A program made the position numbers and the translations under genes. From Thysanoteuthis rhombus (Eukaryota; Mollusca; Cephalopoda; Oegopsida; Thysanoteuthidae): 64,000 nt of DNA. Positions 21,903-63,399 of this stretch are shown here, one piece after another; the stretch's first letter is position 1; every line of letters starts with the position of its first letter. The stretch covers positions 35,719,747 through 35,783,746 of the forward strand of contig OY735211.1 in the NCBI GenBank assembly GCA_963457665.1. Direction: 5' to 3'. Below the pieces are notes generated by a model that worked only from the letters and a program-made list of their open reading frames with translations, was not told the origin of the DNA and made no database searches.

Positions 21903-23500
<1,598 letters not shown>

Positions 23501-35169: not shown

Positions 35170-35201
<32 letters not shown>

Positions 35202-43278: not shown

Positions 43279-43545
43279 TTAGTCGTATAAATTTGGGTTC
43301 AATTGTAGTTTAAGGCTTGAAGTAGTCCTATGGACAGGTACACTAATCTCCACAGTGAATCTTTCCAGCTCCTTTAGGGTTATCTTCCGTCTCTTTGTTG
43401 CCTCTCTGATTAATGCCCTCTTTGCTGGGTCTATGAGTTTTGGTAAGCAGTCGTCTCTTGGTAGTTTTGTTGTGGTGCCATAGTCTTTCCGTTTAGTAAT
43501 ACTGGATTTATTAGAATTCCATGGGACGTTCAAGATTTGGAATTT
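43279..43545 (-). mobile_element. Tc1-type transposase relic, DNA-binding region
   Basis: The minus-strand frame reads NVPWNSNKSSITKRKDYGTT, TKLPRDDCLPKL, and RRKITLKELERFTVEISV with VHRTT after it. This is the second helix-turn-helix region of Tc1 transposases, where the usual GRP-K hook reads DCLPK. The catalytic DD34E domain is missing on the lower-coordinate side, where unrelated DNA follows. It lies about 250 bases upstream of the receptor exon, inside its presumed intron. Confidence 0.78.
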
Positions 43546-43793
43546 TTTCCACTACCTGACCCTGATCTAAGCTTCTCCATAACTTTGTTCATGACATGTT
43601 TGGTTTTTATAATGGCGCTTGCTTGGTAGTGTCCAATGCTTAGTAGTGTTGCAGAGTTTGGGGCCTTTCCTAGGGTCTTACCACACTGTAGTAATTTCAT
43701 TATATTTCTCTTAAACTTGATCTATCGTCATAATTTTTTCATATTATCATTTTTGTTTTATCATAAACACGTTTTTCATTATATTTATTGCAG

Positions 43794-43892
43794 ACGAGAA
43801 TTACTGTGAGAGCACATTTGATGGCTTCCTCTGTTGGGGCCAAACGAAAGCTGGAGAAAGGGCTTACCTCCCTTGCCCTTTCAATACAAAGG
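43794..43892 (+). CDS. class B (secretin-type) GPCR, hormone-receptor-domain exon
   Basis: A 99-base exon with acceptor TTTATTGCAG (ending 43793) and donor AAAGG|GTAAGT (intron from 43893). The first two bases complete a codon and one base is left over, so both flanking introns are phase 1, as is usual for this exon in the family. It encodes ENYCESTFDGFLCW, then GQTKAGERAYLPCPF and NTKG. The pattern C-x-x-T-F-D-G-x-x-C-W, a conserved glycine and a CP pair is the middle of the HormR/HRM extracellular domain that binds peptide hormones and holds three disulfides. The CW and FDG residues are intact. The rest of the domain (the last cysteines and the G-x-W motif) and the seven membrane helices should lie on downstream exons, which I could not find here. 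Nearest relatives may be PDF/calcitonin-type or DH44-type receptors, but the ligand cannot be decided from one exon. Confidence 0.82.
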
Positions 43893-44745
43893 GTAAGTTA
43901 TTCTTAAAACGTTCTTCAAGATACAATAGAACTTGTTAAAATGATAGACTTAATGAAACCGATTTAAAAATGGACATAATATGCTGATTACCTATGATTT
44001 CATTAGATAAGTCTATCTCTTAATTGCTTATAATTCTCTTGATTTAAAATCATTATTGTGTGTTTATTCTATTTACCGTTTAAATGGCATATGACCCAAT
44101 TCTTTGTCGTGATGTGTCCATCTTTTCGCCGAAAAAGCCCCCAAATACTTGATTTCCTTTCCGTTTACTCCCCACCTCGCGAATATGAAAGCCTTAATCC
44201 TAACCCAAACCCCTAATCCTAGCTCTAATCCCTAATAATAGGGAAGGGTCCTAACCAAATAAACTTAACGTATCAATTCCCACTGGTTATGAACATTTTG
44301 GACTGGTAGGGACTAATCAAAATTCTATGCCTTATATTGGCTTTTCTCCTATTTCAAAAGTATTATTATGCGTTACAAACTTCTCCGGATTGGAGACACC
44401 TTTGTTGGAGATCGAAATAAAGGTCCTGATAGTGGAATTTCTGTAGCTGAAAATAGTAACTAACAGTCTTTATGAAAAAAAAACCCACCTATTTTTGTTT
44501 ATTTTTCTTCTCACGTAGATAGATTGCTGGGTTATCATGTTGTGATGGAGTGCGTTGGATAACAAATAACATGTTATTACTTTTTATAGGCATGCGAGAA
44601 GAATCCAAACGTAAGGATCGATTGATCGAAGTTAAGAGGCTTTCTCCAGGGGGTGAGAATAGAACCCTCAATGTTATTGGGTGCTACTTCCAGAATTCTG
44701 ATTTGCTCACTTTGCAAAGCTGCAAAAATCTTATTACTTGACTGA
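43893..44745. other. intron sequence downstream of the receptor exon
   Basis: AT-rich DNA. 44196-44240 has degenerate CCTAA repeats. The frame at 44550-44741 begins after an acceptor-like TTTTTATAG but matches no GPCR sequence. Confidence 0.5.
44196..44240. repeat. degenerate CCCTAA-like repeats
   Basis: TAATCCTAACCCAAACCCC, then TAATCCTAGCTC and TAATCCCTAATA: about seven imperfect relatives of the metazoan telomere unit CCCTAA. Confidence 0.4.
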
Positions 44746-44749
44746 TCTA

Positions 44750-45245
44750 GAATCTAACAAAAAAGATATCCCATCCACTTTTCTGGTCTCTTCGGCTGGA
44801 TCTAAGTGTTGTATCTGTTCCACGGCAGAGCCCAAGGTGCAGTTACTGACACTTGCCCGTCGAATGGGCCGGAGATTGGCGTGTGGATGGTATCAAAGAC
44901 CGAGTGTGCCGGTGCAGCGTGTAAGACAATGAGGTTTTACCGAGGCTGCCACTGCTAAGCGCATTATTTTACTAAGGCTGCCACTGCTCTCCCATTATTA
45001 CTCGGCCCAGCTGCATGGAATCCATTACCCCGGAGCAGCATTGCTCCATTGCAGGTCCCTTGGTGGACGCTTTCGTGGCGGAGGTTGTCTAGCCATTATG
45101 ATGCGCTTTTCAACCGTAGCCGCGTCGGCTGGAGCCATTTTTGGACGGATGGATCCTATTCTTCCCACGTTAAGCTCGACCTTGTGTCACATTTTGCTGC
45201 AGTGAGACAGCGAATAAAAAAAACCCCTCCTCTAATAAAAAAGAT
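44750..45245 (+). repeat. unassigned GC-richer repeat, SINE-like
   Basis: GC-rich relative to its surroundings and ends in A-rich AATAAAAAAAACC, as a retroposon would. GCTGCCACTGCT occurs twice (about 44945 and 44979). It shares TCGGCCCAG and general composition with 55040-55345. Not assigned to a known family. Confidence 0.38.
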
Positions 45246-45775
45246 ATGCAATATCGACCGAGAAAAAATTCAGATGTTTTGATTCTCTGAGATCAAATTG
45301 CTGTTAGAATTTGAGCCCAAATTACCACAACGAATTGAGCTTCTAGTCGGTGAGGAAAAAATACTACTTAATCATTTTTACTTTTCAGGTTTCGTACTTT
45401 CAAATTATGAACTCAAGCTTTTGGTGGAGGATAACGAAAAAGCCCTATTTCATTTGGTCTTCTACTGTTCTAAGCTAAGTTTGTTAAACAACAATCACAT
45501 TCGAAAAATCTAAAATATCTGATGACTTTGGTTGGAAGACTTTCTGAAGGTTTTTCGTTTTATTTATACTTGTGAAATACCCCTTGATTTGCAAACGGTA
45601 TACCTAGAAATTGAATCTAACGCACTGTAAAATCATGGGGATTATCTGAAGTGACAATACCGGAAACTTGACTAAGACATTCGAAAATGAATTCAATTCC
45701 ACCTCACTGTTTTTTCTCGCTGGGTGAGTTCAACCGTTCTCCTTTAGCGATGTCTTTGTTTCATCCCCTAATCCT
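45246..45775. other. no confident feature
   Basis: An acceptor-like TACTTTTCAG near 45389 is followed by an open stretch (GFVLSNYELK then LLVEDNEK). The next receptor exon should contain two cysteines and G-x-W, which are absent, so it is not called. Confidence 0.4.
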
Positions 45776-45779
45776 TTGC

Positions 45780-45838
45780 CTGTCCCTACCTTCTGTTTCC
45801 CTCTCTTTCTCCTCCTCTCCCTCACTCCCTCTCTCTCT

Positions 45839-45888
<50 letters not shown>

Positions 45889-45912
45889 CTCTGTCTCTGT
45901 CTCTGTCTCTGC
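45780..45912. repeat. (TC)n / (TCTG)n tract
   Basis: CT-rich tract with a pure CT core at about 45840-45884 followed by CTCTGT units. Confidence 0.94.
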
Positions 45913-46029
45913 TTTCTTCGCCGTCTTTCTTTTGCAGTCACATTCTCAGAAGCTTTATTTACCCCCTCTCATTTCGACTTAAAACTTTTATTCCAGACAG
46001 AGAAGTGCAAACACGCCGTTTATTATAGT

Positions 46030-46345
46030 ATAGACTAGTTGATACCCGTGAAAAAATTCACGGATATATTTGAATTTCCTTGACACAATGTTTTAAGAAA
46101 AAAATTGCATATCTTTTTGATCGAAAGGTCCGTAGTTTTAAATGGTGAATGGATGGTATTTTGATTAGCAAAATTCTTACCCCATGTTGCGGTCAAGAGA
46201 ATAAAGAGGTCACACTCTTCATTATATTAGTATATGAGTTAGTAGCAGATCATTTACATTAAAAGATCCAATGAGGATCGAACTCACTATCAACGGCCAT
46301 CAATATTTGATTGATTCTATGTGAGGTACATCCTGATCCGTTTTT
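46030..46345 (-). mobile_element. tRNA-derived SINE, copy A of a local cluster
   Basis: The minus strand starts with a B-box-like GAGTTCGATCCTCATTGGAT (46265-46290) and continues through a body conserved with 46670-46920. It ends near a small perfect hairpin, CCGTGAAAAAATTCACGG, at about 46047-46064 next to ATCAACTAGT. Confidence 0.6.
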
Positions 46346-46397
46346 CTTTTTTCATATTATTCATTAACATAGCACTTTGGTAATTGATCATCAGTAT

Positions 46398-46505
46398 AGA
46401 AAATACTGGCCCTGCGACGCCCACGATAGAGAAGTGTGGCAAACCCTGGGGAAGATCTATGTTCAACGATGGACGTTAAAAGACTGATGATGATGATGAG
46501 TGGAA
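46398..46505 (+). mobile_element. RTE-like LINE, extreme 3' end
   Basis: The plus strand encodes KYWPCDAHDREVWQTLGKIY then VQRWTLKD and a stop, followed by (TGA)n at about 46486-46500. Fewer than 35 codons of the element are present, so it is a severely 5'-truncated insertion, lying between two SINEs. Confidence 0.78.
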
Positions 46506-46580
46506 ATCTCATGAGGGTCGAACTCACTAAGTAAGACGAACAAGTTTAGTTTGTTGATCATTATAAAACGTGCGTCCGGG
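46506..46580 (-). mobile_element. tRNA-derived SINE head, copy B
   Basis: Minus strand: TTATAATGATCAACAAACTAAAC as A-box region and GAGTTCGACCCTCATGAG as B-box. A (TTTG)n run at 46603-46636 follows on the plus strand. Confidence 0.6.
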
Positions 46581-46602
46581 TCCATTTTTTCTCTTAATTT
46601 TT

Positions 46603-46636
46603 GTTTGTTTGTTTGTTTGTTTGTTTTTGATTTTGT
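46603..46636. repeat. (TTTG)n microsatellite
   Basis: About eight TTTG units. Confidence 0.9.
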
Positions 46637-46669
46637 TTTTTGTGTTTTTAGAAAAAACTGAATTCATAT

Positions 46670-46920
46670 ACCGAGAAGAGTTCATAGTTTGGAATAGTGG
46701 GTTGGAGGTATTTTTATAAGCAAAATTTTACCCCGAGTGGAAGAGTCCAGGGTTTGGGACAGTGAACCAAGAAAATCACACTGTTCATTATTTAGGTGTA
46801 TATCAAAAGAGCAGGAGCTGGAATCAGACTAGCCATACTACGAGACCCAATGAGGATTGAACCCAATCACTGCAGCCAGCCAGTTTAGCTTGCTGAACGT
46901 TGTTATACGGCATGATTTTT
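46670..46920 (-). mobile_element. tRNA-derived SINE, copy C
   Basis: The minus strand shows the best head of the cluster: CGTATAACAACGTTCAGCAA, then GGCTGCAGTG, then B-box GGGTTCAATCCTCATTGG. The body below aligns with copy A (AGCAAAATTTTACCCC, CACACTGTTCATTAT on the plus strand). Confidence 0.68.
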
Positions 46921-46954
46921 TTTTTTTCATATGATTACTTAGAATATCAGATTA

Positions 46955-47055
46955 TCTATATTGGGAGATCTAATGAGAATTAGACCCACTGACAAAAGCC
47001 AGCAAGATCAACCTACCGATCATTGCTATACGACGTGCATTCAGATCCATTTTTT
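46955..47055 (-). mobile_element. tRNA-derived SINE head, copy D
   Basis: Minus strand: CGTATAGCAATGATCGGTAG and a decayed B-box GGGTCTAATTCTCATTAG. Same family and orientation as A-C. Confidence 0.55.
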
Positions 47056-47059
47056 ATAT

Positions 47060-48655
47060 TATTTATTAGTATAGAAATTTTATTGTAGACTCAAAGTTTA
47101 ACTGTGCAAACTTAAAGATCAGTTTAACTCGACTTCTATAAGTTACAATTTTGTCATTGTAAAAATTCCTCTCACTTTGTTTTTCTGTTGCGTGTCTCCA
47201 TTATTCGCTAGAATTTAAATGTACGCATCTAAAATATCCACATTCTGGCAAGATAGCTTTGTTCCTCGAATACTAGACACAAGTTCAGTAATCCTGTATC
47301 CTTATCATTATTCCTTGTTCGTGTAAAGAAGAGAAATCTGATCAAAAGCAATCAATGCTGTAAGAGTGCCGTGATATATAAAGTGTATTAATAATGTAAA
47401 ACCGAAAAGTACAGATGAAGATTACTTTTTATTAGCTTTTCACAGTCTACTTCCCCATACATCATACAATGTTGAAAAACCAATGTTATGTTCGAAAATT
47501 AATGCACATCTACTTTCACCTCGTTCGATATTCTTGATTATTTCAAGCTAATTGATGAGATTTTCCTTTTAAATTTCTTTTCAGATTTTTGTTTCACTTT
47601 AGGTGGCATTACTTTAAGGGTTTACAAATTTAAGTTGTTTTTTTTAAATGCACTGAAATCTGAATGTGCCGTTGCTGCAAACTAATCTCCAACAATAGTC
47701 TTGCAAGAATATCAACAAAAAAAAAGTGAAGTGCTGTTAGATCAAGGCAAGAGTTTAGCTTAAAAGATTCACACAAAATTAATCCTTATAGCCTAACAAT
47801 CTGGTAGCAACTAGGCTTTACCATTGGAGCAGACGACAAAAGAAGTCTTATCTTTATAACTACTCCAATGAGCATTGCAAAAACAAAAATGTGAAAATAA
47901 CATCGAACGACGCAATTTCTGGAAAATAATACCGAAGATCATAGTTCTTTCGGGAAAAGTTAACAATTCTTCAGTTAGAATAGTGAGTCCATTCGAATTG
48001 ACTTCTAAAATGAAATGCTTTATAAAAGTACTTTATCAAATGTCAATTTTCTCTATTTATAAAAATCATAAAAAGAAAAATATGATATAATATTTACATA
48101 CATTCTAATGTAAAAAGCATGCGATACTTCACTGGCTCCACTTTGCACACTCTTCATCTAAATTTTAAATCTATATAGTACGAGAATTTTAATGCATTTA
48201 TTGCATACATATTTATAAGATAAGTATATAAAGCCTCTTTTGCTTTATCTTTCGGTTTTAAAACTAGGTAAATTCTATTTTTCTGTTGAAAATTTTACTT
48301 GTTGAATCATTCTTCCAGTGGCATCAACTCTTGGACACATTCCCTCTTAGCTGTGCGCACGTACATGCCTGCATATGTTTGCGACCAGCGAACAAAGGAA
48401 ATTCAAGTGCTCTCTAAAGGTTTGTTACCTAAAATAAAGTAGTGAAGAATGAATCGGATGAGTCTTGATCAAAGTATTCCCAGCAACAATAATAATTATC
48501 TGTTAATTGATTCGTGTGTCGTTGATATTAATCAATTACGAAATTGCATCACATAAAAATAAGAAATGCTCGTAACTCCTTGATTTAATGGAATAACAAT
48601 CCGAACAAAGTAGTTCAAAGTATGGAATAACATCTCAACTAATGCAATCATACTT
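47060..48655. other. no confident feature
   Basis: AT-rich DNA. 48319-48418 is bounded by an acceptor-like ATTCTTCCAG and a weak donor AAAGGTTTGT and has one open frame, but it carries no GPCR signature and was not called. Confidence 0.42.
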
Positions 48656-48661
48656 GTTAAA

Positions 48662-49690
48662 CAGTGTCACCCATAAATTAGTGAACCCAAACCATTTTTT
48701 ATAGAACGTTAATTTTCTTCTAAATCAAAAATGGCTGAATTTTATTATTTTATAGTGGAATATTACACAGTGAAAATGGATACTATCAGGTATTAATTAT
48801 GACCAATCTCTACAGCATTGAAACTCAAAAATATGGATATATTAAATATGGATATATCCAAAAATGGGTGCACCTGCACGAAAAAGGTTTATTTAAAATT
48901 AATAACTTGTGTGAGTGCCTCTTATTTTTCAGTATGCATTCTTTGAAATCTGTTCGTCGTATGGTCATCGTTATTTTTCGTTTTTGTACATTCCACAGGC
49001 ACTCAATTGGATTTAAATTCAGTGATATGCTAGTCCAATCGAACATTCTTAACTTTTGCTTCTTCAGAAACACTCTTGTTTTTGTAGCGGAGTGTTTTGG
49101 ATCATTATCATGCAGAAACACAGCTCTTCTTCCCAAGCGTTTTTGTGAAGGCAACATGTTTTCTTTCAATAAATGCAGCTCACCAGTGCAATCAGAGCTC
49201 ATACAACCCCAAACTATGACGTTTCCACCGCCATACTATTGATACCGGATACTCTTCCTTGTGCATCTTGCTGCGATGACACCAAACTCGTTGGATGCCA
49301 TCAGATCCTTATTATCCTACCCAAACTTTAAAGGGGCCTGTCTATGTTTTGATTCTTGTTGTGGTTGCCGACTCAGTCTTCAGTCATGTTTAGGGTACGT
49401 TTCATTTTCATAGTAGAAACATTCACGGCAGACACTTCATTAGTTATATCCTATAGCCAATTTTCTCGGGTTTTCATCTATCAATTTCCTGAAAAAACGA
49501 ATTGACCTTAGTGTCCGCTTACATGTTCAACCTGGACGCTTTCAGTGCACCTCCAACATTTCCACTTCTCTTGTTATTTTGAACAATTTTAACAACACTG
49601 TTTTTGCTCAACTTCAGCCTTAGAGATATCTTTTGCAGCCGTCCTTCTGTTTGTAGAAATGAATAAGATGCCTAGTTGGAAGAGTGTTTT
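48662..49690 (-). mobile_element. Tc1-type transposon, near full-length dead transposase
   Basis: The left end CAGTGTCACCCATAAATTAG then TGAACCC at 48662 is a typical Tc1 terminal repeat. Read on the minus strand, the transposase runs from a helix-turn-helix near 49660 (RLQKISLRLKLSKNSVVKIV, then QNNKRSG), through decayed sequence, to YGGGNVIVWGCMSSD (49199-49242) and the open frame at 48825-49202. That frame keeps FLHDNDPKHSATKTR and WTSISLNLNPIECLW, so the second aspartate and the glutamate of DD34E survive. The SPDLNP loop aspartate is asparagine. Several stops and frameshifts kill the gene. A right terminal repeat is not clear; GGTTCACTTGGCAGCA near 50175 is a possible remnant. Confidence 0.82.
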
Positions 49691-49699
49691 TCCGTGTGG

Positions 49700-51970
49700 A
49701 GCCATTACCGAACTGAACATTTGTCCACTATTTTTGACATTGCGTACACAGTTTATATCAAAATTTATTGTACTTCTTTATGGGCGATACAGTATATTAA
49801 AATTCGCAAATACAGTTTTTTTAGCTATGGGAGATAGGATGTGCCAAAATTATTTCAAAACAATTTCAAGTTTACATCTGCACAAGCGTTCATTGCACAT
49901 ACTTTTGTCACAGGAAGAAAAATTTCTGCAAGATTTTTGCGCATACTGACTGACTGAGGGTTTTTTTTGAATCAATGAATCATTCATGTTTTCATTCATT
50001 TCTCTTGAATTAATTGTTACTTTATTCCACAGGATCGAATCACTAACAGTTTTTTTCAAACCACTTTTTCAGCTGAGAAAAATTGGTACAAGAAAAATAA
50101 AATATTGAGAAATTTTCTGTATATCTATCTCAGATCCATTGCAATTTTTGCTTGAGAAGAAACTTGTCCAATTAGGTTCACTTGGCAGCATTTAATTCAG
50201 CATTCAGTCAGTTTGACAATGGGAAAATAACCTGCAGTTATTATGTCATCCCAAAGGCCCTTCTATACACATTTGTTATTAATGTTTATTTATATACATA
50301 TGTTTGTCTATTAGTTTATCTGTCATATTACCTGCATGTCTATTCTCCTGCATGTGTGTGTGAGTGTAAAGAGGGGAGAGAGGGGAAATGTGGGGAAGGG
50401 GCTAAAGAGATAAAGGAAAAAAGGAAAATGAATGATGAAGAAGCGAAACTTGGGGATTTAATCCAGATTGAAACAAGAATGCATCTTGAAGGGTGGGAAA
50501 TACAGGTCGTACTTTCTTTGTCCATCAGCATCGGCATAGCTGAGAGGGAGAGGGCTATTTAAAAACGTCTTTCGGTTCACACTAGAGCCCTGCCCTAGGG
50601 TTTGCTTATTTGAAGATATCTTATCCCCCAAATATTCGTGGACACTGAGCTGTTCCATAATCTGATTGATCAGCCTTCGGGGTTGCTTTTCACCAATTAA
50701 GTGATAGTGTATGTCTATTTATTACAAAGTTACCTTTTTCATCATACCACATTGAATGTTAGAGCAGTATCCACAAAGATCCGAGCCCCCCTTCCCCTCA
50801 GACCCTTGGATCTCTTGTTACGTCTTGGTACATCAGTCTGTTAATGTAACATAATAACGTCAATGACAAGGGACGCCAATTAAAAACACTATATAGTCAC
50901 CACCCAGTGCTATGGCTGTGAATATACCGTAGTACCAAGATATGCCAGACAATATCATTATAGATACATCGTGCTGATTAAAAGAAACTTTAATGTAATT
51001 TTGATATATACTTAGCGAAAGAATCATATTTTAAAACTAACTTTAACATTGTTTGCTTTCCTTACTATCCTTTTCCTCCTTGCTCCCCATCTTCTCTCCC
51101 TTGTTCCCTCTGTTTCTATTCTATCCCCTGGTCGTTCTCTCAACTTTTCTTCGTCTCCTGTACTCAATGATATATTTACGGTGTGTCATTAGCCTTTGTC
51201 ACTTCCCTACAACCCAGCCTGAGTCTTTTCTCAAGTGCTTCATAAGGGCTTCTAAATACAATATTCGTGAAGATAGATCGATGCAATGAAGAAGATTGTC
51301 TTTCTATAAGATGACAAGACATGACAATTGATTCCTGCTTACGATCGAAAGAATTTCGTCTAAATTTATTCCTTTCTTACTGATCGCAGCCAGACCAGTC
51401 AGGGGGTTTAGGGATAGACGGAGGGTGGTCCTTTGGCTGGTGTTATGTAGAGATCGGGTCTCTTCTAGAATAATCAATGGGATCTCCAAGGAAAGTTTTT
51501 TTCCGTGATACCAATCTCCTTACAGTACCGGGTATTTCCGAACGGTTACCCATGTAGGTACTGACCAAGCTCGACGTTGCTTTACTCCGGTGATTGTACG
51601 AGAACCGATGTATCCAACGTCATTTGGTCGTGACTTGTAAATAGAAAGAAAGCAAAGATAACAATACTTGGAAACAAATAATGCATTCATAGCCTTTGGC
51701 AATTGAATGTACAATCCATTCCATGTGTCGTTTGGTGTCTTTTTCATTCGCTGATTGTCTGACGTCTCATGAGACCAATTAAACAGATTTTGTTACCGTC
51801 TCTTCTTTATCAGGATGGGAGCTGTTACTCCATTGATTAACAGAATTGTAACTGCGAGGAACAGCGGGATGTGTGCATGGAAGACAGCACGGAAGACAGA
51901 CCGAAATTCATGCGAAGCAAAACATCCTTAATAGGAAATAATGATTGTTATTGTATTCCCTCCTGGATTT
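49700..51970. other. no confident feature in 2.3 kb
   Basis: Except for the possible Tc1 right end near 50175, nothing is recognised. The frame at 50182-50562 (+) mixes hydrophobic and basic low-complexity sequence. A pyrimidine-rich stretch lies at 51060-51160. Confidence 0.42.
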
Positions 51971-51975
51971 ATCAA

Positions 51976-52390
51976 TACAGGGTGTTAAAAAAAAAACGTA
52001 TTCTTGAAAACCTGTACCTAAACTATTTTGAATCTATAAACTATCAATTTTTGAACAAATTACAAACCAGATTGCAAAAAGATGCTCATATAATCGCAAA
52101 TACACTTCAACTTTACAATACGTGTTGTAAGTGATTTCCTTTAACCGGAGTGCGGGTTCGTACCCGATACGTTTCGTACCATTGCAAAACGACACAATCG
52201 AAACAACACAAAAGAATGGATACTCGAATGAGGCTAACGCATAATGCATTCATTTCAACTGATAAATACCGTTGTCTTTGAGTACACTGTTACTATATGC
52301 CTAATATCGTTGAGTAAAATTTACGTGCATGTGGATTCTACCTTCTTATCCTTAATGTTGTGTCCTCAATGGAACAGTAAACACCCTGTA
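51976..52390. mobile_element. MITE-like element with TACAGGGTGTT ends
   Basis: TACAGGGTGTT at 51976-51986 is exactly inverted at 52380-52390 (AACACCCTGTA), giving a 415-bp unit. The TA at each end may be the duplicated target, as in Tc1/mariner-type insertions. The interior has no transposase motif; a short frame crosses the left end by chance. CAGGGTGT-type ends are common in several DNA-transposon groups, so the superfamily is not fixed. Confidence 0.6.
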
Positions 52391-52850
52391 AGAACATTCT
52401 TATCATAACAGATTTTCTTGTCAAGAAAACCTTTTTTTAAATACCGACACATGTTTGGCTTTTGAGGCTTCCATTATTTCATGTCTCTGCACTTCTTTGT
52501 CCTTTGTTTGTATCTTGTCATTCTCTACTTCCAATTTCCGTTGCCCATTCATGTTTTTTATCTAAATTTTACTTAACATGGTATTCGTGTTATGTGCAAA
52601 TCTTCCATCTACCTCATTAAACTACCCAGTCTCCTTTTCTCTCTTACTACCCTCTTATTAAACAAAGGATTTGATTCTCTGTTCTTGCCCAGTTATTAAA
52701 CTACCGAACTTTTTTCTTTATATTATTAGTAAAAGCGTCACATCGGAACACAGATAAGAACAGACAAAATAATATTCTATATTTTCTGCGTGGAGGTTCG
52801 TAATCTCTACTGCTGCAGCTACATTTTAGGTCTTTGTATACCTTTGAGAA
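52391..52850. other. no recognisable feature
   Basis: AT-rich DNA; nothing recognised. Confidence 0.45.
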
Positions 52851-52851
52851 A

Positions 52852-52940
52852 ATGATGTTATACATACGAGAAAAATCGTTTTATACATATAGAAAGTCTT
52901 TTTATACATATGAGACAAACCATGTTATACAACTTAGATA
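52852..52940. repeat. short degenerate tandem repeat
   Basis: TTATACATA-GAGAAA-like units recur about four times (near 52857, 52879, 52901 and 52925), with a period of roughly 22-24 bases. Confidence 0.6.
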
Positions 52941-52979
52941 AATCGAGAAATGATGGCCAGCTGCCGACCTTTAAATGTT

Positions 52980-53190
52980 TCATTTTCTGTCTTTGACAAC
53001 ACAATTGATACTTTCATCATAATATATCCCAAAAGGTTTAGGGAATTCGAACGTAGGAAAATTACTAAACCTAAAATATGGTTTCCATAGTCTCCTTCGA
53101 AGTAATCTCCTAGTGTCGAAAGTCTGCACTGCATTTCGTTTAAAGCACACAGCTAAAATTAATTCCCTGAACTTTTGAATCGCACCTTGC
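52980..53190 (-). mobile_element. mariner-like transposase C-terminal scrap
   Basis: The minus strand encodes MQCRLSTLGDYFEGDYGNH. C----x-GDYFEGD is the C-terminal signature of SETMAR/mariner-group transposases. An adjacent frame reads GAIQKFRELI, so the region is frameshifted. No catalytic residues are left. Confidence 0.5.
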
Positions 53191-53264
53191 ATGCGTTCGT
53201 GCATAGGCATACATGTAGGCTATCTATATAGTGACGGGGGGAGTATTTTGACACTTACAAAGTA

Positions 53265-53480
53265 TCAATTTAATATACTTTCATTGCTTACAACTTTCAA
53301 ATCATTAATGTTTCTGTGATCCCTCTGATAAATCTGACCCTTCAAGCATCGCCATAAGTTTTCAATTAGATTCAAGTAAAGGGATTGATTTGGCCACTGG
53401 CGGAAGAAAACTTGTTGATATAAGATTATAACTTTCAATACCCTGTGTACTAATGAAGAAGCTTTTTTGATTTCCAACAT
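53265..53480 (-). mobile_element. Tc1-type transposase C-terminal relic
   Basis: The minus-strand frame reads FFRQWPNQSLYLNLIENLWR then CLKGQIYQRDHRNINDL. This is the WPsQSPDLNPIEnLW block of DD34E transposases with the last glutamate kept but SPDLNP changed to SLYLNL. The sequence upstream in the same frame does not match the catalytic DND region. Confidence 0.75.
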
Positions 53481-53484
53481 ATTT

Positions 53485-54610
53485 AATATTAGTGAGACAA
53501 TTTACGTTGTGAAATGAAAAGTAAAAAAAAAAAAGGAATAATGCTCTTGTAGTAATAATTTTAAAATTCAGGGATGAATACATGTGTGTTTTTCAGTATC
53601 GTACTGAAAAAAAAGAAAAACTTGTACTATTCATGAAAGGTTAGTCACGTGACAAATATGATCTAAAAGTAAGCAGATCGCTGCCATGTCATTAAAATCA
53701 ATCGGGATTTTCTGTCCTCGATATTAATTAGTAGTAAATGATCGTAACTTGTTCTTTGATCAATTATCTTTCGATTTATATGTTTTTATTCTAAGGTAGA
53801 TAACGTTGTTTTGACGAAGATCTTAGCAGGCAAAGATCACCCCATTGCACTGCGCACAAATGGTCCACCAAGACACTTCGGATTGTTTACATTTGGTAGA
53901 CACCCAACCTGGTGAAATAATGACAATATCTCATGATCTGTATTCTCCATTCTTTGTTCTTAATGACCTTAGGTAATACTTCTGTCTCTCCTGGGTATTT
54001 ACTCAGACCCGTAACGGAATTAATATTCCATGGGTGAAATAATCAATGATGAATAAAACTCACATAATTGCGTAACCAGTTGCATTGAAATTTAATATTT
54101 TATGCATTATCATAAACTTTTTTTTGGAAATTTTGGATCAAAGAGTTCTGCGTTCTCAAAATTTGCAGTAAAAGATTTTCTTGGTGCATCAGGTGGAAAG
54201 GTTAGATTATATTACATCAATTTATTTTTTATTGCAAAAATTGCAACTTTTTCATAACTTTTGATCTAATGGACGAATTTTGATCAAATAAAGTACTTTG
54301 TGCTCTTTATCTTTGATATTTCGATATGCTGAAAAGAAGGCAAATTCTGGAAGGGGAAAGGTTGTTTTGGTATCACAAAAACTCTACCTTTGATGCTATT
54401 TTTCAGTGATTTTAGTCAGTTTTCAGCAATTTTCTAGCCTGTTTAACCAAATTTCAACAAATAAAAATTGCTTCAGAAGGCTAAAAGTATTTTTCTCAGC
54501 ACGTTTTGGCATTTTTTTGAGGTCCATTTAGCGCGGAAAAAGTTTGAGTTGACAACACTTGGGGTGACAACCAGAGTTACCACCCCAGGTAACACCAACC
54601 CTAGGGACCC
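53485..54610. other. no recognisable feature
   Basis: AT-rich DNA. 54110-54500 is a T/A-rich stretch with no coding sequence. Confidence 0.45.
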
Positions 54611-54617
54611 AATAAGG

Positions 54618-54618
<1 letters not shown>

Positions 54619-54662
<44 letters not shown>

Positions 54663-54674
54663 TGTGTGTGTGTG
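54619..54674. repeat. (TG)n microsatellite
   Basis: About 27 TG units with one TA interruption. Confidence 0.96.
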
Positions 54675-54704
54675 CGTTTACCAAAAATTGATTCTTTAAA
54701 TGCA

Positions 54705-54955
54705 TATATGAAATGTCAATGGGCTGGTCATGTTTCAAGAATGTCAGACAACTGATGGACTCGCAAGATGGATCCCCAAAAATCATATGCATAACTATGG
54801 CCGATAGAATATAAGATGGTGTGACGAACTAGACATGTTTAGAAAGCATTTGCCTCTGCAACGCCCATGATAGAGAGGTCTGGGGAATCCTGGGGAAGGT
54901 TTATGCCCAACAATAGACCACCAAAAGGCTGATGATGATAATGATGATATATTTT
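54705..54955 (+). mobile_element. RTE-like LINE, 3' end
   Basis: The plus strand encodes MKCQWAGHVSRMSDN, then in shifted frames the WIPKNHM, RWCDELDMF and ATPMIERSG-like remains, ending ACCACCAAAAGGCTGATGATG with an impure (TGA)n tail at about 54926-54946. It is 5'-truncated at almost the same point as the copy at 35170-35421. Confidence 0.78.
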
Positions 54956-55039
54956 TCCAAAGTTTTATAACTATCATCAAACATGACGAAAATATTCACT
55001 TACGGATCGGTACTTCTGCTCAGAATCAGAGTACGTGTT

Positions 55040-55345
55040 CTGCCTAGGAGCAGAGTGTAGTATCTGTTCGCAGTACATGCTTTGGTAGCTTTGCACCGGT
55101 GCAATGACGTGGCTGATGATGGCTTACTGATGCTTGTTATAAACCCAAGAGGCCGAGGATTCGTCCTGTGGCCTCAAAAGATAATTCGGCCCAGTCCCGG
55201 GGGAGCAGTACGCCCTGGTGCAGCACCATCCATTCGCACGAAAAGGGATGGATCAGGCTTGCCCTGACACCTCTGTTACACTAGTGCCGGAGACTGGAGC
55301 AATTTTTACAGCTCTCCTGTGACTGGAAACCCTTATTAAAAACGA
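55040..55345 (+). mobile_element. SINE-like repeat, tRNA-type head possible
   Basis: GGTGCAATGACGTGGC and GGATTCGTCCTGTGG could be A- and B-box remains. The GC-rich body contains CCCAGTCCCGGGGGAGCAG and GCCGGAGACTGGAGCAA, and the end is a short A-rich TTATTAAAAACG. Composition resembles 44750-45245. Confidence 0.45.
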
Positions 55346-55443
55346 CTTCGTATCACATCTTGCTCTTCTGGGGAAGCCAGTAAATACGAATCGGAGTTTA
55401 TTATATGTGTGCACATTGAAATGTGTTACACCACATACACACG

Positions 55444-55445
<2 letters not shown>

Positions 55446-55523
<78 letters not shown>

Positions 55524-55525
55524 AT
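55446..55525. repeat. (AT)n-(TG)n compound microsatellite
   Basis: About 28 TA units then about 11 TG units, continuing impurely to 55550. Confidence 0.96.
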
Positions 55526-55550
55526 GTGCGTGCGCGTGTGTGCGTATGCG

Positions 55551-56150
55551 GATATACATTGTGCTTTATATAAATGGATATCTTTTTAATTCAATTTAAA
55601 TTCTGCACATAACTACGAATGCAATGATCACCGATTGCAACAGGTGGTATCGGAGTGAAGGTTGAGAGGTCTTGGCCCGATACTCTTAACTTCTAAACAG
55701 AAAAGAAGCATTTGCAAATATTAACCGAATCTACGGCACCGTGCGCAGATGTGACGGTAGCGGTTTGTTTGGTCGTGACTCATCATCACCGGGTGAACGA
55801 TCCATACCACGCCCGGTTGATTAACAGATGAAAAAAACAAAACTTTTAAAACGGGAAGGCATCGGTTATTGGGTCTTGGGCCGATGATTCTGCAACAGCT
55901 GCGAAGTCGTGGACAATTACAGCTTTCAAATAATTAACTTTATGCACTGATGACTTTGGGGGGACATTAACAGCTATAATGATCAATTAGTGTTAAGCAT
56001 CATTTCCTTTCGTGACGTTTTTAATGTCTAACTGGTAAGAGCTCATATTGAAATCATGATCATATATTGTGGCGTCACCAGTGTATCCATAGGAGAGTTG
56101 TGGGGTTTCCTTGTCCTTAATAGTCAAGGTTGGTTCACGGAAAACTTGTC
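55551..56150. other. unassigned
   Basis: 55640-55830 is GC-richer and may be an old repeat; no family recognised. Confidence 0.38.
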
Positions 56151-56154
56151 AACC

Positions 56155-56530
56155 TAGTGTGATTCTTGGCTTGATTTCTTCTTCTTTTAATAACTCCACG
56201 GAGATTCCCTGTCCTAAGCAGATGTAGTTGTTTACTTTCTCCAGCCCTGCATTTTTTATTCTGATCGTTGTTTGTTTGTCCTCAACATGTCCGTTGAATA
56301 TGACATTTGTTTTACTGAAGTTCATGTAGAGGCCAACTTTCTTACTTTCTTCATTTAGTTCGTCTCACATTATTCTGAGATCGTGAACGTTCCTTGCAAA
56401 GAGAACGATATCGTCTGCAAATTTAAGGTTACTATCATCTCAAGGCAGGCTGTGAAGAGTTTAGGTGAGCTGGTATCACCTTGCCTCACTCCTTTGGTTG
56501 TGATGTGGTTTCCCTAAGATAATGTAACAA
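56155..56530 (-). mobile_element. RTE-like LINE fragment with intact FADD palm motif
   Basis: Minus strand: NLKFADDIVLFARNVHDLRI, a stop, then DELNEESKKVGLYMNFSKT, NVIFNGHVEDKQ and IKNAGLEKVNNYICLGQ, ending ISVELLKEEEIKPRI. This is the palm motif C with both aspartates plus the thumb start. Stops occur after the palm, and neither the N-terminal half nor the 3' tail is present. Confidence 0.82.
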
Positions 56531-56716
56531 CACAGATACCGTTTTATTAAACGAATATTCAGAATCACCGAGCCCAGTTTTTTTGTCTTGTTCATTGGTA
56601 AAACGTAATTACAATTCCGTTCCACAAATTCCGTATAAAAATGTATACTCCACTAAAAATATTCATACCATCCTTGTTGCATCTATTCTTACAGTAATTC
56701 GTCGATTCTGCAGAGA

Positions 56717-56787
<71 letters not shown>
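56717..56787. repeat. (TTA)n microsatellite
   Basis: About 23 ATT units. Leucine and asparagine runs in frames across it are artefacts. Confidence 0.97.
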
Positions 56788-56924
56788 GTGGTCGACCTCT
56801 GTCTTTATTACATGTTTGTTTTCTGTCTACTCTTCTGCGTGGATTCAATTTGTTTCACTAGACTTCAGTGGTCACTTGAAGTCATGCATTAATGCTTTCA
56901 ACACAATTGAAATAAAACAGATTA

Positions 56925-57070
56925 GCCGATCACCGGGCGTCTATAATGGCTGATATGAATGTGTATTTCTCACTGATGCCTGTGGTCAGTGTACGAGTCC
57001 TCTTACAATGTCAGTATTTCGAAAGTTGATTCGCAAAACAGACAGGGCCTCCCCACAGAATTTGGCCTTG
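56925..57070 (+). mobile_element. tRNA-derived SINE
   Basis: A tRNA-like head, TAATGGCTGATATGAATG, precedes the B-box GTGTACGAGTCCTCTTAC. CAGTATTTCGAAAG follows as in the copies at 18596 and 19735. Confidence 0.5.
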
Positions 57071-57585
57071 TACCGAACTAAGTTTAGTAAATATCATCGC
57101 AGAAAACCTTAAAACGACGTACTTTCTGATTTTCTGTGAATCCATTTATACATTTTTTTACATTTCTTATTGCAGCCAAATTAGGAAAAACATTAACTGT
57201 AATTAACATTAACTGTGTTGAATAAGCTCAGATGTTTGTTCTAGTTTTATTTTCCACATTTCTTTTCCGATCAGGTATCATTATAAACACCTGTAAGTTT
57301 TCCTGAAAGTTCATTTAGAATATTCTCAAAATTCCTGAAACTACCATTGTATCGTATGTTCGTTCTCCCTCTTAAATGCTAATTTGATGTTTTTCCATGC
57401 ATTAACTTCATTGCATCCCAATCTGAAGGCATATAGAAAGAGTAACAGAGCTTGATGTACAATAGTAAATGTCCCAATACAATAAACACCTACTGAGGCG
57501 CATTTTCATTGAATCAAATCATGAATCGTCGTAAATCCGATATCATATGTAGTACAGTCTGATAGGTTGGTGTACTAATTCGGTA
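57071..57585. other. no recognisable feature
   Basis: AT-rich DNA. TTCTTATTGCAG near 57164-57175 is acceptor-like but is followed by stops in every useful frame. Confidence 0.45.
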
Positions 57586-57589
57586 TTAT

Positions 57590-57830
57590 ATCTCCTAGCA
57601 TCTCACCTACTTTGCGAAACAGTTCGTAAAGTCCTCTCTCGGGATTGCATCACATGCTTGTCACGTTACCCTTAATCTTGCGCACGGTCTAAAATCTCTT
57701 TGGGGGAAAAGCAAGAAGGGGGCTAAATCTGGACTATAGAAGGGATTGTTTAGCTAAAAGAATTCCTGCACGAGACGTACGGAATGACTCGCTCTGCCGT
57801 TGAGAGTACAACGGTCATACAGTATACAAA
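57590..57830 (-). mobile_element. mariner-like transposase relic (catalytic C-terminal half)
   Basis: The minus strand encodes LNGRASHSVRLVQEFF, a stop, then LNNPFYSPDLAPFLLFPQRD and, after frameshifts, AIPREDFTNCFAK. The family pattern is hDNAraHta--vqeFLa, hPpYSPDLAPcDffLFP and aIP-edf-ncF. The DNA aspartate reads NG and the APCD aspartate reads APF, so both visible catalytic positions are lost. Confidence 0.72.
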
Positions 57831-58055
57831 CTCACTCAGTAGCGTTCCCCTGCCGACTGTCTGTTCATGCATGCACAGTAAGGTCTCCTCTAATTAGCTG
57901 ATAGGTTGCATCAAGGCCACGCAACCTGTTCTCACGATTTTTAAAATGGCTAGATCATTTTCATACACTCCTCGTATTGTTGCTCATTCGGCATCTTATT
58001 CACCAGTGTTTTTTTTATGTTTTTTTTTTTTTTTTGCTTTTTTCGAAAATTGTAA
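57831..58055. other. no recognisable feature
   Basis: Includes a T-rich run at 58009-58036. Confidence 0.45.
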
Positions 58056-58059
58056 ATTC

Positions 58060-58235
58060 TGATTTTAGAGCAATTATCACACGACATTCTCTTTCGTTCA
58101 TGTGTGTCATTAATATTCACTAAATCTAGCTCAGGTTGGCACAAAGCCACAACTTTGAGACACTCACATAGGATAGAAATCACTTTGTCTGCGAAACTAC
58201 ACCATTAACCACTACTCCACTGTGAGACTCTCCAG
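58060..58235 (-). mobile_element. tRNA-derived SINE
   Basis: The minus strand reads GGAGTAGTGGTTAATGGTGTAG, a good A-box region, and a decayed B-box. The body with CACAAAGCCACAACTTTG resembles the SINE at 39640-39815. Confidence 0.5.
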
Positions 58236-58713
58236 TCCCGAAGCTCATTTGTACAGATCGGTAGATTAAGCTGAATGCCAGAGGTTGTCATTAAACAATA
58301 TTCATCGACTCGAATATGGATAGATCTATTTATATCGAGCGATTAGCATAGACGGGGATCGATTTAATCTAAAGATAAACTATGTATAGAATGAGATGTC
58401 AATGATGTCGAGGCATTAAACTTAATTGCAATTTGGTCTAATCAAATATTTTTCCTGAATATAAATAATTCTGTCTAAACAGCTAAATTTAGATCTGAAT
58501 CCATTCAAATTCTTGAGTTTTGTTTATCACAGACAGTCCTTAGTCTCATGCAGGGTCACGTGGTAGAATGTCGGGTAGATTGAGTTGCATGAGATTAATA
58601 AATGGTGAGGAAATTCAACATCTTTCAAAATCCTGGCCTTTATCTGGGCTCTCCCAAAAGGATAACTGGTCCCGATTGAAAATACGCAACTGACTTAGCC
58701 ACCAAGTAGTTTT

Positions 58714-58714
<1 letters not shown>
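58236..58714. other. no recognisable feature
   Basis: AT-rich DNA; nothing recognised. Confidence 0.45.
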
Positions 58715-58783
<69 letters not shown>

Positions 58784-58816
58784 TGCTTATATATTGGAAT
58801 GAAATGAGACCGTGCG

Positions 58817-58848
<32 letters not shown>

Positions 58849-58875
58849 CATTCACACACACACACACACACACAA

Positions 58876-58940
<65 letters not shown>

Positions 58941-58965
58941 TAGATAGATAGATAGATAGATAGAC
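58715..58965. repeat. compound (AT)n/(CA)n/(AT)n/(GATA)n microsatellite
   Basis: (AT)33 at 58716-58781, (AT)15 near 58816-58845, (CA)n at 58853-58882, (AT)n at 58883-58936, and (GATA)7 to 58963. Confidence 0.97.
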
Positions 58966-58974
58966 AATGAGAAC

Positions 58975-59142
58975 AGATCGGGTGTAGAGATATTTATTCA
59001 CGAACGTTTCATAGGAATGATCCCACATTGTAAACTCCAGCACAATTAGGCTTTCCACTCTATTTTCCTCATCTCACTGATGATGTGTGGGTCATTCCCA
59101 TGAAGCGTCCGTGAATAATTATTTATTCATCCAATCTGTGTT
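58975..59142. repeat. inverted repeat with hammerhead-like motif
   Basis: 58975-59028, reverse-complemented, aligns with 59083-59140: ATGTG-GG-TCATTCC-ATGAA, CGT-CGTGAATAA, and CAATCTGT or CGATCTGT, about three quarters identical. The plus-strand arm is preceded by ACTGATGATGTGTGGG and continues TCATTCCCATGAAGCGTC. That order of CUGAUGA, a short stem and GAA-C resembles a type I hammerhead ribozyme as found at ends of Penelope-like elements. Core positions differ (GAAGC rather than GAAAC in this arm; the other arm has GAAAC but lacks CUGAUGA). Confidence 0.55.
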
Positions 59143-59144
59143 TT

Positions 59145-59830
59145 CCTTTTTCTCCATAAAACATAAATTTCACCAATACGTCGGATATCTCATTCATCCA
59201 ATAATTATAAGCATATATATACTCACATACAAATACACAAGTGTATGTGCGTGAGAAGAAATGACACCAATCTGACAGAATGCTGTGTTGACAATATGGG
59301 AGAGAAAAAATTGAGACAACTTAGTACATCTCATTTTTTATTATTAAATAATGTAATATCTTACTTCCGGTTTTTGTCAGAGCCTTGAAAAGAGAAAGTC
59401 GGTTGGAGAGGAATGGTGAAAATTTCAGAAATGCCGGGATGCCTCGATAATCGTCGGGGTAGAGAAATTGTTGAGTACAGGTGGAGACGTGTGAGGGTCT
59501 TATTACAGTGTATCAGATGGAAAAGTTTTTTTTTAATCATATACGTAAGCTGGATCCCTAGAAAAGAAGATATCCTTTTTAGTAAATGGTTGTTTTGAGG
59601 AAAATGACAGTGTTCTGGTGATGTAGCTGGTGTGGGAAAGGGTTTGGGTTATTTGTTGAAGAGGAATATACAAATATGTGTATAAGAGGAAAAAACGAGA
59701 TTAGAAATCATTCTGGGGAGATTAGCCCGCATAAAATGTGTAACTGTCATTTGTATGAGGTGTTATTTCATGTTATTTTACGATTGCTTGTGGTGGGGAT
59801 TAACGATGCAGGGTACCCCCAACCCCGATA
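59145..59830. other. no confident feature
   Basis: 59400-59600 has a short arginine-rich open frame (+) with no family match. Probably chance or flanking repeat. Confidence 0.4.
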
Positions 59831-59834
59831 TGAT

Positions 59835-60880
59835 TTCTAAAGGGAGTAATCAAGAAACTAAAATACGGCAAAGTCGCAGGCGTCGAAGAGATCCTTCCAG
59901 AAATTTGGAAGTATGTAAACCCAGCTCTGTGCCCATATCTCCGCGATCTTCCTGTCTGCTGCTGGGAACAGGGAAAGCTATCACAAGCCTTCAAAGAGGC
60001 AATCATCGTAACCCTCAACGAAAACGTGTAAAGTCTGACGGCTCAAATTACAGGAACATCACTCTGCTTTATATCACTGGTGAAATCCTCGTGAGGATTC
60101 TGCTGGATGGGCTGGTACAAAAGGTTGCGAGTGGGGTTTCAGCTCAAACCTTGGCGCAATCGACTAATGGACAAATCCAGGGGAAATGTCACGAACAATT
60201 TAATAGGCTGTATGCCACTTTTGTAGACTCGATGAAGGCGTTCAGTACCGTGAGCGGGTCAGGCTTTTGGCAGATCTTGCACCAGCTTTGTTGTCTTCTT
60301 TCTTTCCTATATTTGATCACCCAACCGCTCAGAGCAAGCCCTACGACGACTGATGCCACCGAAATTTTTCGGCGTAGAAGTCAGCTTGACGAAAACGGTT
60401 GATTCTTCAAGACCCAGTGAAGTGTACCACCCACTTTCAATAAATATTAGCAAATGCTAAGCTCAACAAAGAAGTTGAAAACAGGTCTGCTAAAGCAAAA
60501 AAAGCCTTTGGCAGACAACAAAAGCGCGTCTGGACAAACGAGAACCGGAGGAAAGATATCAAACTAAAAGTGCACTGAGCTGTCGTTCTGCCCATTCTCC
60601 TATACGCCTCCTCAAACGTTTCCACCAACGCAGTCGCAGCACCATCATCAAAGTACACCGGTGCGACTTCATTACAAACAATGGAGTTCTTGATATTACC
60701 AGCTTCCCCAGCATCGGAGCTATGCGATAAAAACGCAGTTGCGATGCAGAGGCCACGTTTCGAGAATGGAAGACAATAGACTTCCAAAAACCGTAATGTT
60801 CCAGCGCCAATACAGATATTCAAGGACTCCCTAAAGCAAACCCTCATCTCTACCGTGTTCGATGACGTAAGAGTTACGTT
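59835..60880 (+). mobile_element. second LINE family, decayed reverse transcriptase
   Basis: The plus strand encodes, in shifting frames, VIKKLKYGKVAGVEEILPEI, WKYVNPALCPYLRDL, CCWEQGKLSQAFKEAIIVTL, SNYRNITLLYITGEILVRIL, then YATFVDSMKAFSTVSGSGFW. The aspartate of AFD in palm motif A is serine here. The palm FADD region is deleted, and the sequence resumes with KKAFGRQQKRVW, LLKRFHQRSRSTII and FITNNGVLDI near the C-terminus. This is a non-LTR reverse transcriptase different from the RTE copies elsewhere in the window. The open frame at 59755-60402 covers only part of it. No tail was identified. Confidence 0.75.
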
Positions 60881-60884
60881 GTTC

Positions 60885-61440
60885 ACGGCTCGCAATGCTC
60901 AACAGTGAGCGTCTCTCGTATTCATAGCGACCAACGCTGCCTCTGTAAGGTGGTTCTGTCTGGTTTCCTAATTTACATATGTGGCATCTTTCTTCCTTCA
61001 AAGGAAAAGAAAGCGTTGTCGCCACTGCAATCAATGTTTCTTGAATTATTTTTTCTTATTTTGAAATGTCTTTCATTTCAGTTGATTTTCTACGATATAC
61101 ACGTATTCTTTTGTCTTGGCTTTTTTCTCTTCTCTTAAATAAGTTTGATCTTTCTTTTTTTCTTAAATAGGTTAATATTCTTTCTCGTGAGCTTTTTTAC
61201 CCAAATTCATGAAATCTTCTTTTGAAGAATTCATAGGGTGATGATATTACCTCTACCCAATCATGCCGATGCAACCCTAACCTTTAAAGAGGGAAATAGT
61301 CACTGCTTAACGATTTTCATTGAATAAATATAAGCAAACGATCACTGTTAATCATTGTGAACACTGAAATCCAATCAATCCCGTTAAAAAAGACCACACG
61401 ACTGGTATATTGAATAAAGTACTTTTATCTAAAGTCATCC
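60885..61440. other. no recognisable feature
   Basis: AT-rich DNA with T-rich stretches around 61040-61190. May include the 3' end of the LINE. Confidence 0.42.
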
Positions 61441-61444
61441 AACT

Positions 61445-61915
61445 CCAGAAACATTAAGTGTCCGGTATACCAATGCATTCTCCCAATAGTCACTTATGGA
61501 GCCGAGACATGGAACCTAACCAAGAGACAGACCCGTAAATTGAGAACCATACAACGTGCACATGAAAGAATTATACTGTGCCTCACATGGAGAGACCACA
61601 AGACAGCACAGTACATCCAAGAAAAGACAAGAGTCGGGGACGTCATAGAATCCATTAAAAATCTCAAATGGCAGTGGGCTGGCCATGTTGCAAGAATGGC
61701 AGACGATCGATGGACATCACGACTCACGACATGGATCCCCCGAGATCACATGCGCAACCGAGGCCGGCAGAATGTTAGATGGCGAGACGAGCTAGACAAG
61801 TTCAGGAAGTACTGGCTCCGCGACGCCCATGATAGAGAAGTGTAGCAAATCCTGGAGAAAGTATATGTCCAACGACGGACGTTAAAAGACTGATGATGAA
61901 TGAATGATGAATGAA
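61445..61915 (+). mobile_element. RTE-like LINE, 3' end
   Basis: The plus strand is open from 61493 almost to the end: VTYGAETWNLTKRQTRKLRT, IQRAHERIILCLTWRDHK, ESIKNLKWQWAGHVARM, DRWTSRLTTWIPRDHM, WRDELDKFRKYWLRDAHDRE, then one stop before QILEKVYVQRRTLKD. The 3' end is GACTGATGATGAATGAATGATGAATG, given here in part as an impure (TGA/ATGA)n tail at 61891-61915. It is nearly identical at protein level to the minus-strand copy at 20205-20625, so both are comparatively young. No catalytic domain is present. Confidence 0.88.
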
Positions 61916-63395
61916 ATCAGGAGTAGGCCGATATTAGTTCCCGGTGCGGTAACTCCTCCCATGGGCCGATTTGACCCTCTATGGTTTTTTTTCCATCGTC
62001 CCCGTCCCCTTTCTTCTCATCTACTTTACTTGGGCGCTTCTTTTCTCGCTAATGCTCTAACTCTATTGCTTCAACATTTGAGGCGAGAGCATTAAACCAT
62101 CTTAATCTGAAACTTGGATTCAATAAGGCACTAGGTTTATTTTCCTTGTAGTTTTTGTTGTTGCTTTCTATCCATGGCCTTTTTGTCCTTGTGCTTCGCT
62201 TTTTTCCATATATTCCATATTTTTGTCGATACTTGCTGCCACAGTGTCCAGGAATAAAATATTAACGTCTTCCTGTATTTGTTGTACTGTCTTGGATGAT
62301 ATGCAGACTTGCTTTAAGTGCCCCTTTTTCCCCCGCAAGCGTAGCATTCTTTATCCTTGTCAGTGCATTCGGGTCCGGGGTGTCAAATCCACATTTGTGG
62401 GAAATGATTTTATTTTTTTCCTCTTTTATTTCATTTCCTTATCACTCTGTCTATGGAGTTCTTTTCGGGGCTTCTTCCGCGTAGGGTGGTTTGTTATTGA
62501 CGGACCACTTCAGTCTGCTTTGCCATTTCATTGGCTCTCTCCCCAACGTGCAGAATCAACTAGCGAAATCGGGCGAAAGAGGCTACAGACAGCTAGGTAG
62601 CATGAAAAGAATTCTAAAGCTACTTTTGTCGAATCCAAACGAAGAATCAGGTCAGAAAAGAAGAGACAGCATCGCAAGGTTTAGCCGTCAAATGTTTCAC
62701 TGAGAATTAAAAAACTAAATTCAGTACAGTTACGTTTTCTTTTTATTTACCCAAAAATCTAATTGGGTGGTTTCAACGGATGTTATTTATTTAATCACAC
62801 AATCCTTGCTTTGATTGAAGTCTTCTTTTTTTTAATTTTGTGATATGTACTATTTCAGTGATAACATTAGGGAAAGGTTAAGAAGTTTTAAAAGAGGGTA
62901 GAGAGGGAACAGAAAAGAAAGTTAGTTAGTGTAATAAGATGACAGAAAGAGAGTGGGGAGAAAAGAAAGCTAGGTAGTTTAGTGAGGGAGTAGGACGAAT
63001 ATGAAGCTAATCCGAGTTTGTGTAACATTTAGATAGAAGAATGGACAGACAACGACGATTTAAAGGAGTAAGGGAAGGAAGGAGAAGATACAGGCATAGA
63101 GTGAGAGAAGAAAATAGGAGCGTTACTTTCACATTCCCAGAGCTATAATTTGAATACCTCCATACCCTATCGAGACCTGACATTCTTTGGTTTGATATTG
63201 ACTGGCCTTACCTAAGTACGATACGAGGCTGAATCGAGGGTTCGAACTACGACAACTGCTACAACTACCTCATCCACAGACAGTGTTCAAATAATCTAGT
63301 AACAAAATGTTTATTTCGTTCTTTATTTACTAACTAGTTATAACCTGTGAAGAAAAAGATAGCAAAAGACAAGAGGATACAATGTCACCTAAAAT
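61916..63395. other. no confident feature in 1.5 kb
   Basis: 62000-62340 on the minus strand has a stretch reading VQQIQEDVNILFLDTVAASI with neighbouring lysine-rich sequence. It looks like translated mobile DNA but I cannot place it. 62870-63120 is purine-rich (GA). No other feature. Confidence 0.38.
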
Positions 63396-63399
63396 AGTT

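Follow-up and report, generated by a model that had tools for sequence, protein, structure and literature searches.

A receptor-ectodomain exon, very probably of calcitonin-receptor type, in a repeat-filled cephalopod window

Calcitonin receptors and their family relatives are plasma-membrane proteins whose HRM domain takes up the C-terminal half of the peptide ligand; they act via Gs and cAMP. Among the animals in which such receptors may be sought, the cephalopods have a reduced or lost shell. The family B receptors of molluscs have been surveyed across genomes that include that of Octopus bimaculoides, and this survey describes calcitonin receptors of types I and II, with mussel receptors tested, and proposes the calcitonin-like system as a candidate regulator of mollusc shell mineralisation (PMC7200681). 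Calcitonin-type precursors are reported from both aculiferan and conchiferan molluscs in a second study (PMC6425005). No published description of the gene treated here was found in the part of the literature that was searched; it would be a further member of a known receptor family.

The sequence under study, referred to as the window, is a stretch of 64 kb (G000:C14:35719747-35783746) from a cephalopod assembly of 2.73 Gb in 514 contigs. A reflectin-like query has 37 matches in this assembly (E down to 2.5e-46), 35 on contig C45 and 2 on C10; as reflectins are not known outside the cephalopods, the source is very probably one of these animals, and the lengths of the contigs point to about 46 chromosomes, a number also found in squids and cuttlefish. 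Within the window lies a short interval, the window exon (Table 1). Very probably it is a genuine and conserved exon from a hormone-receptor gene of calcitonin-receptor type, and more of the receptor lies past the end of the window. Judging by sequence, we give a probability of about 0.92 to the reading that this plus-strand exon comes from the gene of a calcitonin-receptor-like class B1 GPCR and codes for the first half of its ligand-binding ectodomain.

The window exon and its continuation downstream

Read in the frame from position 43796, the window exon translates as ENYCESTFDGFLCWGQTKAGERAYLPCPFNTK, with two bases of a split codon before this stretch and one base of another after it. The acceptor sequence tatatttattgcag directly precedes the exon, which ends in AGG before the donor gtaagtta. 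When scored with approximate splice matrices, 79 of the 3365 AG sites on the plus strand did at least as well as this acceptor, and 6 of the 3427 GT sites did at least as well as this donor, the exon's own site being counted each time. Pfam HRM (PF02793) is the sole family matched by the exon alone (36.8 bits, E 5.2e-9; cut-off 26.2), and the core motif is absent from all 300 simulated first-order Markov windows. (In the PDB, the exon by itself ranked adiponectin first, but this match consisted of repeated weak stretches of 10.7, 10.7 and 2.7 bits that lack the cysteines, and it was discarded.) A genome-wide DNA search with the 291-bp neighbourhood of the exon, in which very common words were skipped, found a single match, which was the neighbourhood itself. 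The initial annotation, made from the letters of the window, had proposed a conserved receptor-motif exon at this place and a search against HRM profiles; the exon is confirmed by the Pfam match, the splice-site ranks and the simulated windows, and the profile is matched by the exon both alone and when joined to the next one.

That next exon lies outside the window. Of the 50 kb taken downstream, 42.5 kb could be read, and with class B consensus pieces as well as profiles from receptors of the same genome as queries, four further exons were located on the plus strand in class B order, their borders being checked (Table 1). The two HRM exons join in phase, and together they cover positions 2-64 of the 66 in Pfam HRM (60.7 bits, E 1.7e-16). 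The aspartate before CW, the CW itself, CP and G-x-W are all present, in the forms TFDGFLCW, PCP and NGTW, together with five of the six ectodomain cysteines; the remaining one, the first in order, is expected on a 5' exon. Farther along, the TM6 and TM7 exons reach 33.4 bits against Pfam 7tm_2 (PF00002; cut-off 20.6), and the TM4/5 exon alone gives 15.5 bits, below the cut-off. Because exon order, strand and phase agree, and the paralogue described below agrees with them, we infer that the five exons are spliced into one mRNA.

Table 1. Features of the window gene and its paralogue (positions with two dots are those of the window; the others are those of contig C14)
Feature	Coordinates	Strand	Details
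Splice acceptor region	43774..43793	+	last bases ttattgcag
HRM first-half coding exon, probably of a calcitonin-receptor-like class B1 GPCR (window exon)	43794..43892	+	99 bp, phase 1/phase 1
Splice donor	43893..43900	+	gtaagtta
Putative intron, part within the window	43893..64000	+	20,108 bp of 23,563 bp; suggested by the order, strand and agreeing phases of the exons
HRM second-half exon	C14:35787202-35787299	+	98 bp, starts after phase 1, ends phase 0
TM4/5-type exon	C14:35806287-35806350	+	64 bp
TM6-type exon	C14:35811216-35811351	+	136 bp
TM7-type exon	C14:35813481-35813522	+	42 bp, GFFVSVLFCFLNEE
Paralogue gene	C14:25.51-25.56 Mb	-	10 Mb from the window gene; HRM1, HRM2, TM1/2-, TM3- and TM6-type exons
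Paralogue HRM2 exon	C14:25552935-25553033	-	85% identity to HRM2 of the window gene
Paralogue HRM1 exon	C14:25558245-25558337	-	65% identity to the window exon

How much of the window belongs to the gene? It had been suggested that much of it is intron of a neuropeptide-type receptor gene. The receptor gene is borne out by the later class B exons that follow downstream on the same strand and in the right order. The intron is supported for the whole stretch from the donor to the end of the window, since the next exon starts 3,455 bp past that end; for positions 1-43793, where the 5' exon or exons with the signal peptide and first cysteine were sought, no such exon was found. Candidates that end in phase 1 and contain a cysteine were listed from this part, and two of them (22424-22515 and 34837-34905) are imaginable, neither being backed by any support. 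Frames from the 30 kb upstream of the paralogue were also compared with those of window positions 1-43800: no shared 5' exon was present in at most the best 60 of 11,575 match rows, the strongest matches were shared dispersed repeats, and the 5' exon candidates of the paralogue showed no resemblance to those of the window.

The window exon had also been described as the only sequence in the window to combine such a receptor motif with a strong acceptor, a strong donor and symmetric phase 1. In six-frame searches of 2871 segments, methods that are weak for single short exons gave no convincing second class B exon. The best match to a class B consensus piece was of TM2/3 type (11996-12103, minus strand, E 0.032); the best to profiles from receptors of the same genome had an E of 0.087, and the best to paralogue exons other than HRM1 an E of 0.019. 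Downstream, the TM1, TM2, TM3 and C-terminal exons were not found in the readable 42.5 kb with profiles of the same genome's receptors, the TM2 and TM3 exons of the paralogue, and motifs as queries. A genome-wide 7tm_2 scan (150 of 168 candidates scored) returned 95 matches, none of them near the window; the suggestion that no receptor is located there is misleading, since the TM6 and TM7 exons pass the Pfam cut-off yet were unlisted.

Receptor subtype, paralogue and selection

Which class B receptor does the exon belong to? The subtype had been left open by the initial annotation. When ranked against solved class B chains, which by name are vertebrate receptor types, the joined HRM exons come closest (best chain of each) to CLR with 53.3 bits, then to the calcitonin receptor (CALCR) with 47.6 and PTH2R with 42.3, followed by PTH1R (36.3), GCGR (30.9) and CRF2R (27.4). 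The TM6 and TM7 exons give CLR 51.0, CALCR 47.1, CRF1R 46.7 and PAC1 40.7 bits, the margin of CALCR over CRF1R being only 0.4 bits here. With CLR and CALCR first for both parts of the protein, the subtype is largely resolved: among solved receptors, the predicted product is calcitonin-receptor-like.

A paralogue adds to this picture. The genome search with the joined HRM exons, in which each of the 49 first-look candidates was scored, gave 46 places with an E of 10 or less, and the best of these outside the window gene are the two HRM exons of a second gene on the same contig (Table 1). Its HRM is split at the identical place with the same phases and has the same short loop, but its HRM1 exon is one codon longer, and the intron between its HRM exons measures about 5.2 kb, as against 23.6 kb in the window gene. 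Compared with solved receptors, its TM3 exon is closest to CALCR (42.2 bits), followed by CLR (32.2) and CRF1R (30.6).

A rather unlikely alternative is that this class B1 receptor lies outside the calcitonin-receptor clade proper, in one of the invertebrate clades next to it (Cluster A, PDF receptor or PDFR-related). Molluscs have several such clades, and an oyster gene that was first named CALCR falls in Cluster A according to the mollusc survey (PMC7200681); the solved chains ranked above are, by name, of vertebrate types. Against this, CLR and CALCR are at the top for the HRM exons and for TM6 and TM7, and CALCR for TM3 of the paralogue.

The calcitonin-receptor-like gene also appears to have been maintained. 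Over the HRM1, HRM2 and TM6 exons (leaving out the extra HRM1 codon of the paralogue, the first D of the window exon, split codons, and the TM4/5 and TM7 exons), the two paralogues have 94 differences in 109 aligned codons, of which 12, 17 and 65 fall at codon positions 1, 2 and 3. The resulting pN/pS is 0.18 (bootstrap 0.12-0.25), with silent sites near saturation; the window exon by itself has a pS of 0.77 and a pN of 0.175. Since the differences are thus mostly silent, at least these three exons have been kept under selection at the level of the protein. A decayed or truncated copy, in which HRM and some TM exons are left and a seven-helix receptor is no longer made, would account for the TM1-TM3 and C-terminal exons that were not found downstream, but it is very improbable: all five exons of the window gene are open with intact splice sites, the protein is conserved while silent sites approach saturation, and the downstream interval was readable only in part.

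Symmetric phase 1, as in the window exon, had been called the family's usual state for this exon. Elsewhere in the genome, four split HRM-1 exons were read by eye: L040, L044 and L051 have phase 1 on both sides, and L055 has it at its downstream end, being open upstream. At L041, also read by eye, the HRM halves stand together, unsplit, in one frame. A comparison from 2006 of the TM region in metazoan family 2 genes reports that, apart from the TM1/TM2 boundary, intron phases are in general poorly conserved (PMC1764030). The claim is thus shown within one genome.

The loop after CP is short. Between CP and the end of the exon there are 5 residues in the window exon (FNTKG) and the paralogue (FNTNG), the last codon being split, and 10 residues in L044, L051 and L055, which are three split HRM-1 exons outside the pair; the same 5-residue gap appears in the alignment to human CLR. 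A missed micro-exon is made less likely by the fact that the window exon and the paralogue have the short loop in common. In human CLR, this loop contributes peptide contacts, so we would tentatively suggest, as a possibility, that the two genes form a cephalopod calcitonin-receptor-like pair in which both members lack 5 residues of the ectodomain loop through a shared loss, with selectivity for peptides or accessory proteins that may be altered.

Other class B receptors and the repeats of the window

Of the 46 places that the joined HRM exons match in the genome, 24 are on contig C21, all but one of these (23 of 24) between 0.13 and 12.4 Mb. A second HRM exon of the type HCRENGTWSTHPKTNDQWTDYSPC is nearly identical in 8 of the 16 loci listed (L045-L050, L052 and L053), which on C21 span 12 Mb and both strands; with half of the listed loci sharing a near-identical HRM2 exon, class B receptors seem to have expanded here fairly recently. 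On C18, at 0.94-1.14 Mb (L002-L005, L009 and L041), five 7tm_2 matches each fall within one open frame (410-815 aa) and therefore point to a cluster of intron-poor class B-like receptors; one frame, near C18:1139433, also contains a whole HRM.

The window itself is rich in other elements. A Pfam search with ten of its frames gave no family above the cut-off and weak matches only, two of them to transposase families. On the minus strand, 43279-43551, about 240 bp 5' of the window exon, matches HTH_Tnp_Tc3_2 with 14.5 bits, and 48825-49235 matches DDE_3 with 22.8 bits, both under the cut-off; these are probably degraded fragments of Tc1-type transposases. The minus strand also carries a full-length 5S rRNA-like sequence at 51517-51635 (Rfam RF00001, 56.8 bits, model 1-120), which may be a copy of the 5S gene, a pseudogene, or part of a SINE whose head is of 5S type. 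A dispersed repeat family occurs in both orientations at 20206-20607, 35172-35419, 46393-46499, 54851-54918 and 61521-61899, two of its copies being 91% complementary to each other along 379 nt; its frame reads GHVARMADNRWTSRL...WRDELDKFRKYW, has no Pfam match over the cut-off and resembles the tail of a non-LTR retrotransposon. In a window so full of simple repeats, repeated elements and weak transposase traces, a chance open frame or repeat-derived sequence might be suspected in place of an exon, but this can be dismissed: the joined HRM match contradicts it strongly, as do the E value of the exon alone, the absence of the motif from the simulated windows, the single DNA match in the genome and the continuation of the gene downstream.

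Comparison with known receptors

Raw sequence thus allows a 99-bp exon to be picked out of a repeat-filled 64-kb window of a cephalopod genome and placed in a gene with a putative intron of more than 23 kb. By analogy with its relatives, the predicted product would be a plasma-membrane receptor for an amidated peptide of calcitonin or DH31 type, whose C-terminal half its HRM domain would bind, and would signal via Gs and cAMP. Together with its paralogue, it would add a calcitonin-receptor-like pair in a cephalopod, which helps the matching of peptides to receptors; because a part in shell mineralisation has been proposed for the calcitonin-like system in the mollusc survey (PMC7200681), the pair should be useful for such matching in a group with a reduced or lost shell.

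The vertebrate receptors CALCR and CLR/CGRP1R share with the window gene five of six HRM cysteines, the D before CW, CW, CP and the stretch GTWFRHP...WTNYTPC, as well as RATLILIPLLG in TM6 and QGFFVSVLFCFLNEE in TM7. They differ from it after CP, where the window gene is 5 residues shorter (CPFNTKAFAFKDC versus CPDYFQDFDPSEKVTKIC). The mollusc calcitonin receptors of types I and II are the group in which its orthologues would be expected, a likeness drawn from their description in the mollusc survey: the six cysteines, D, C-W, C-P and G-x-W described there are present as far as the two HRM exons reach (PMC7200681).
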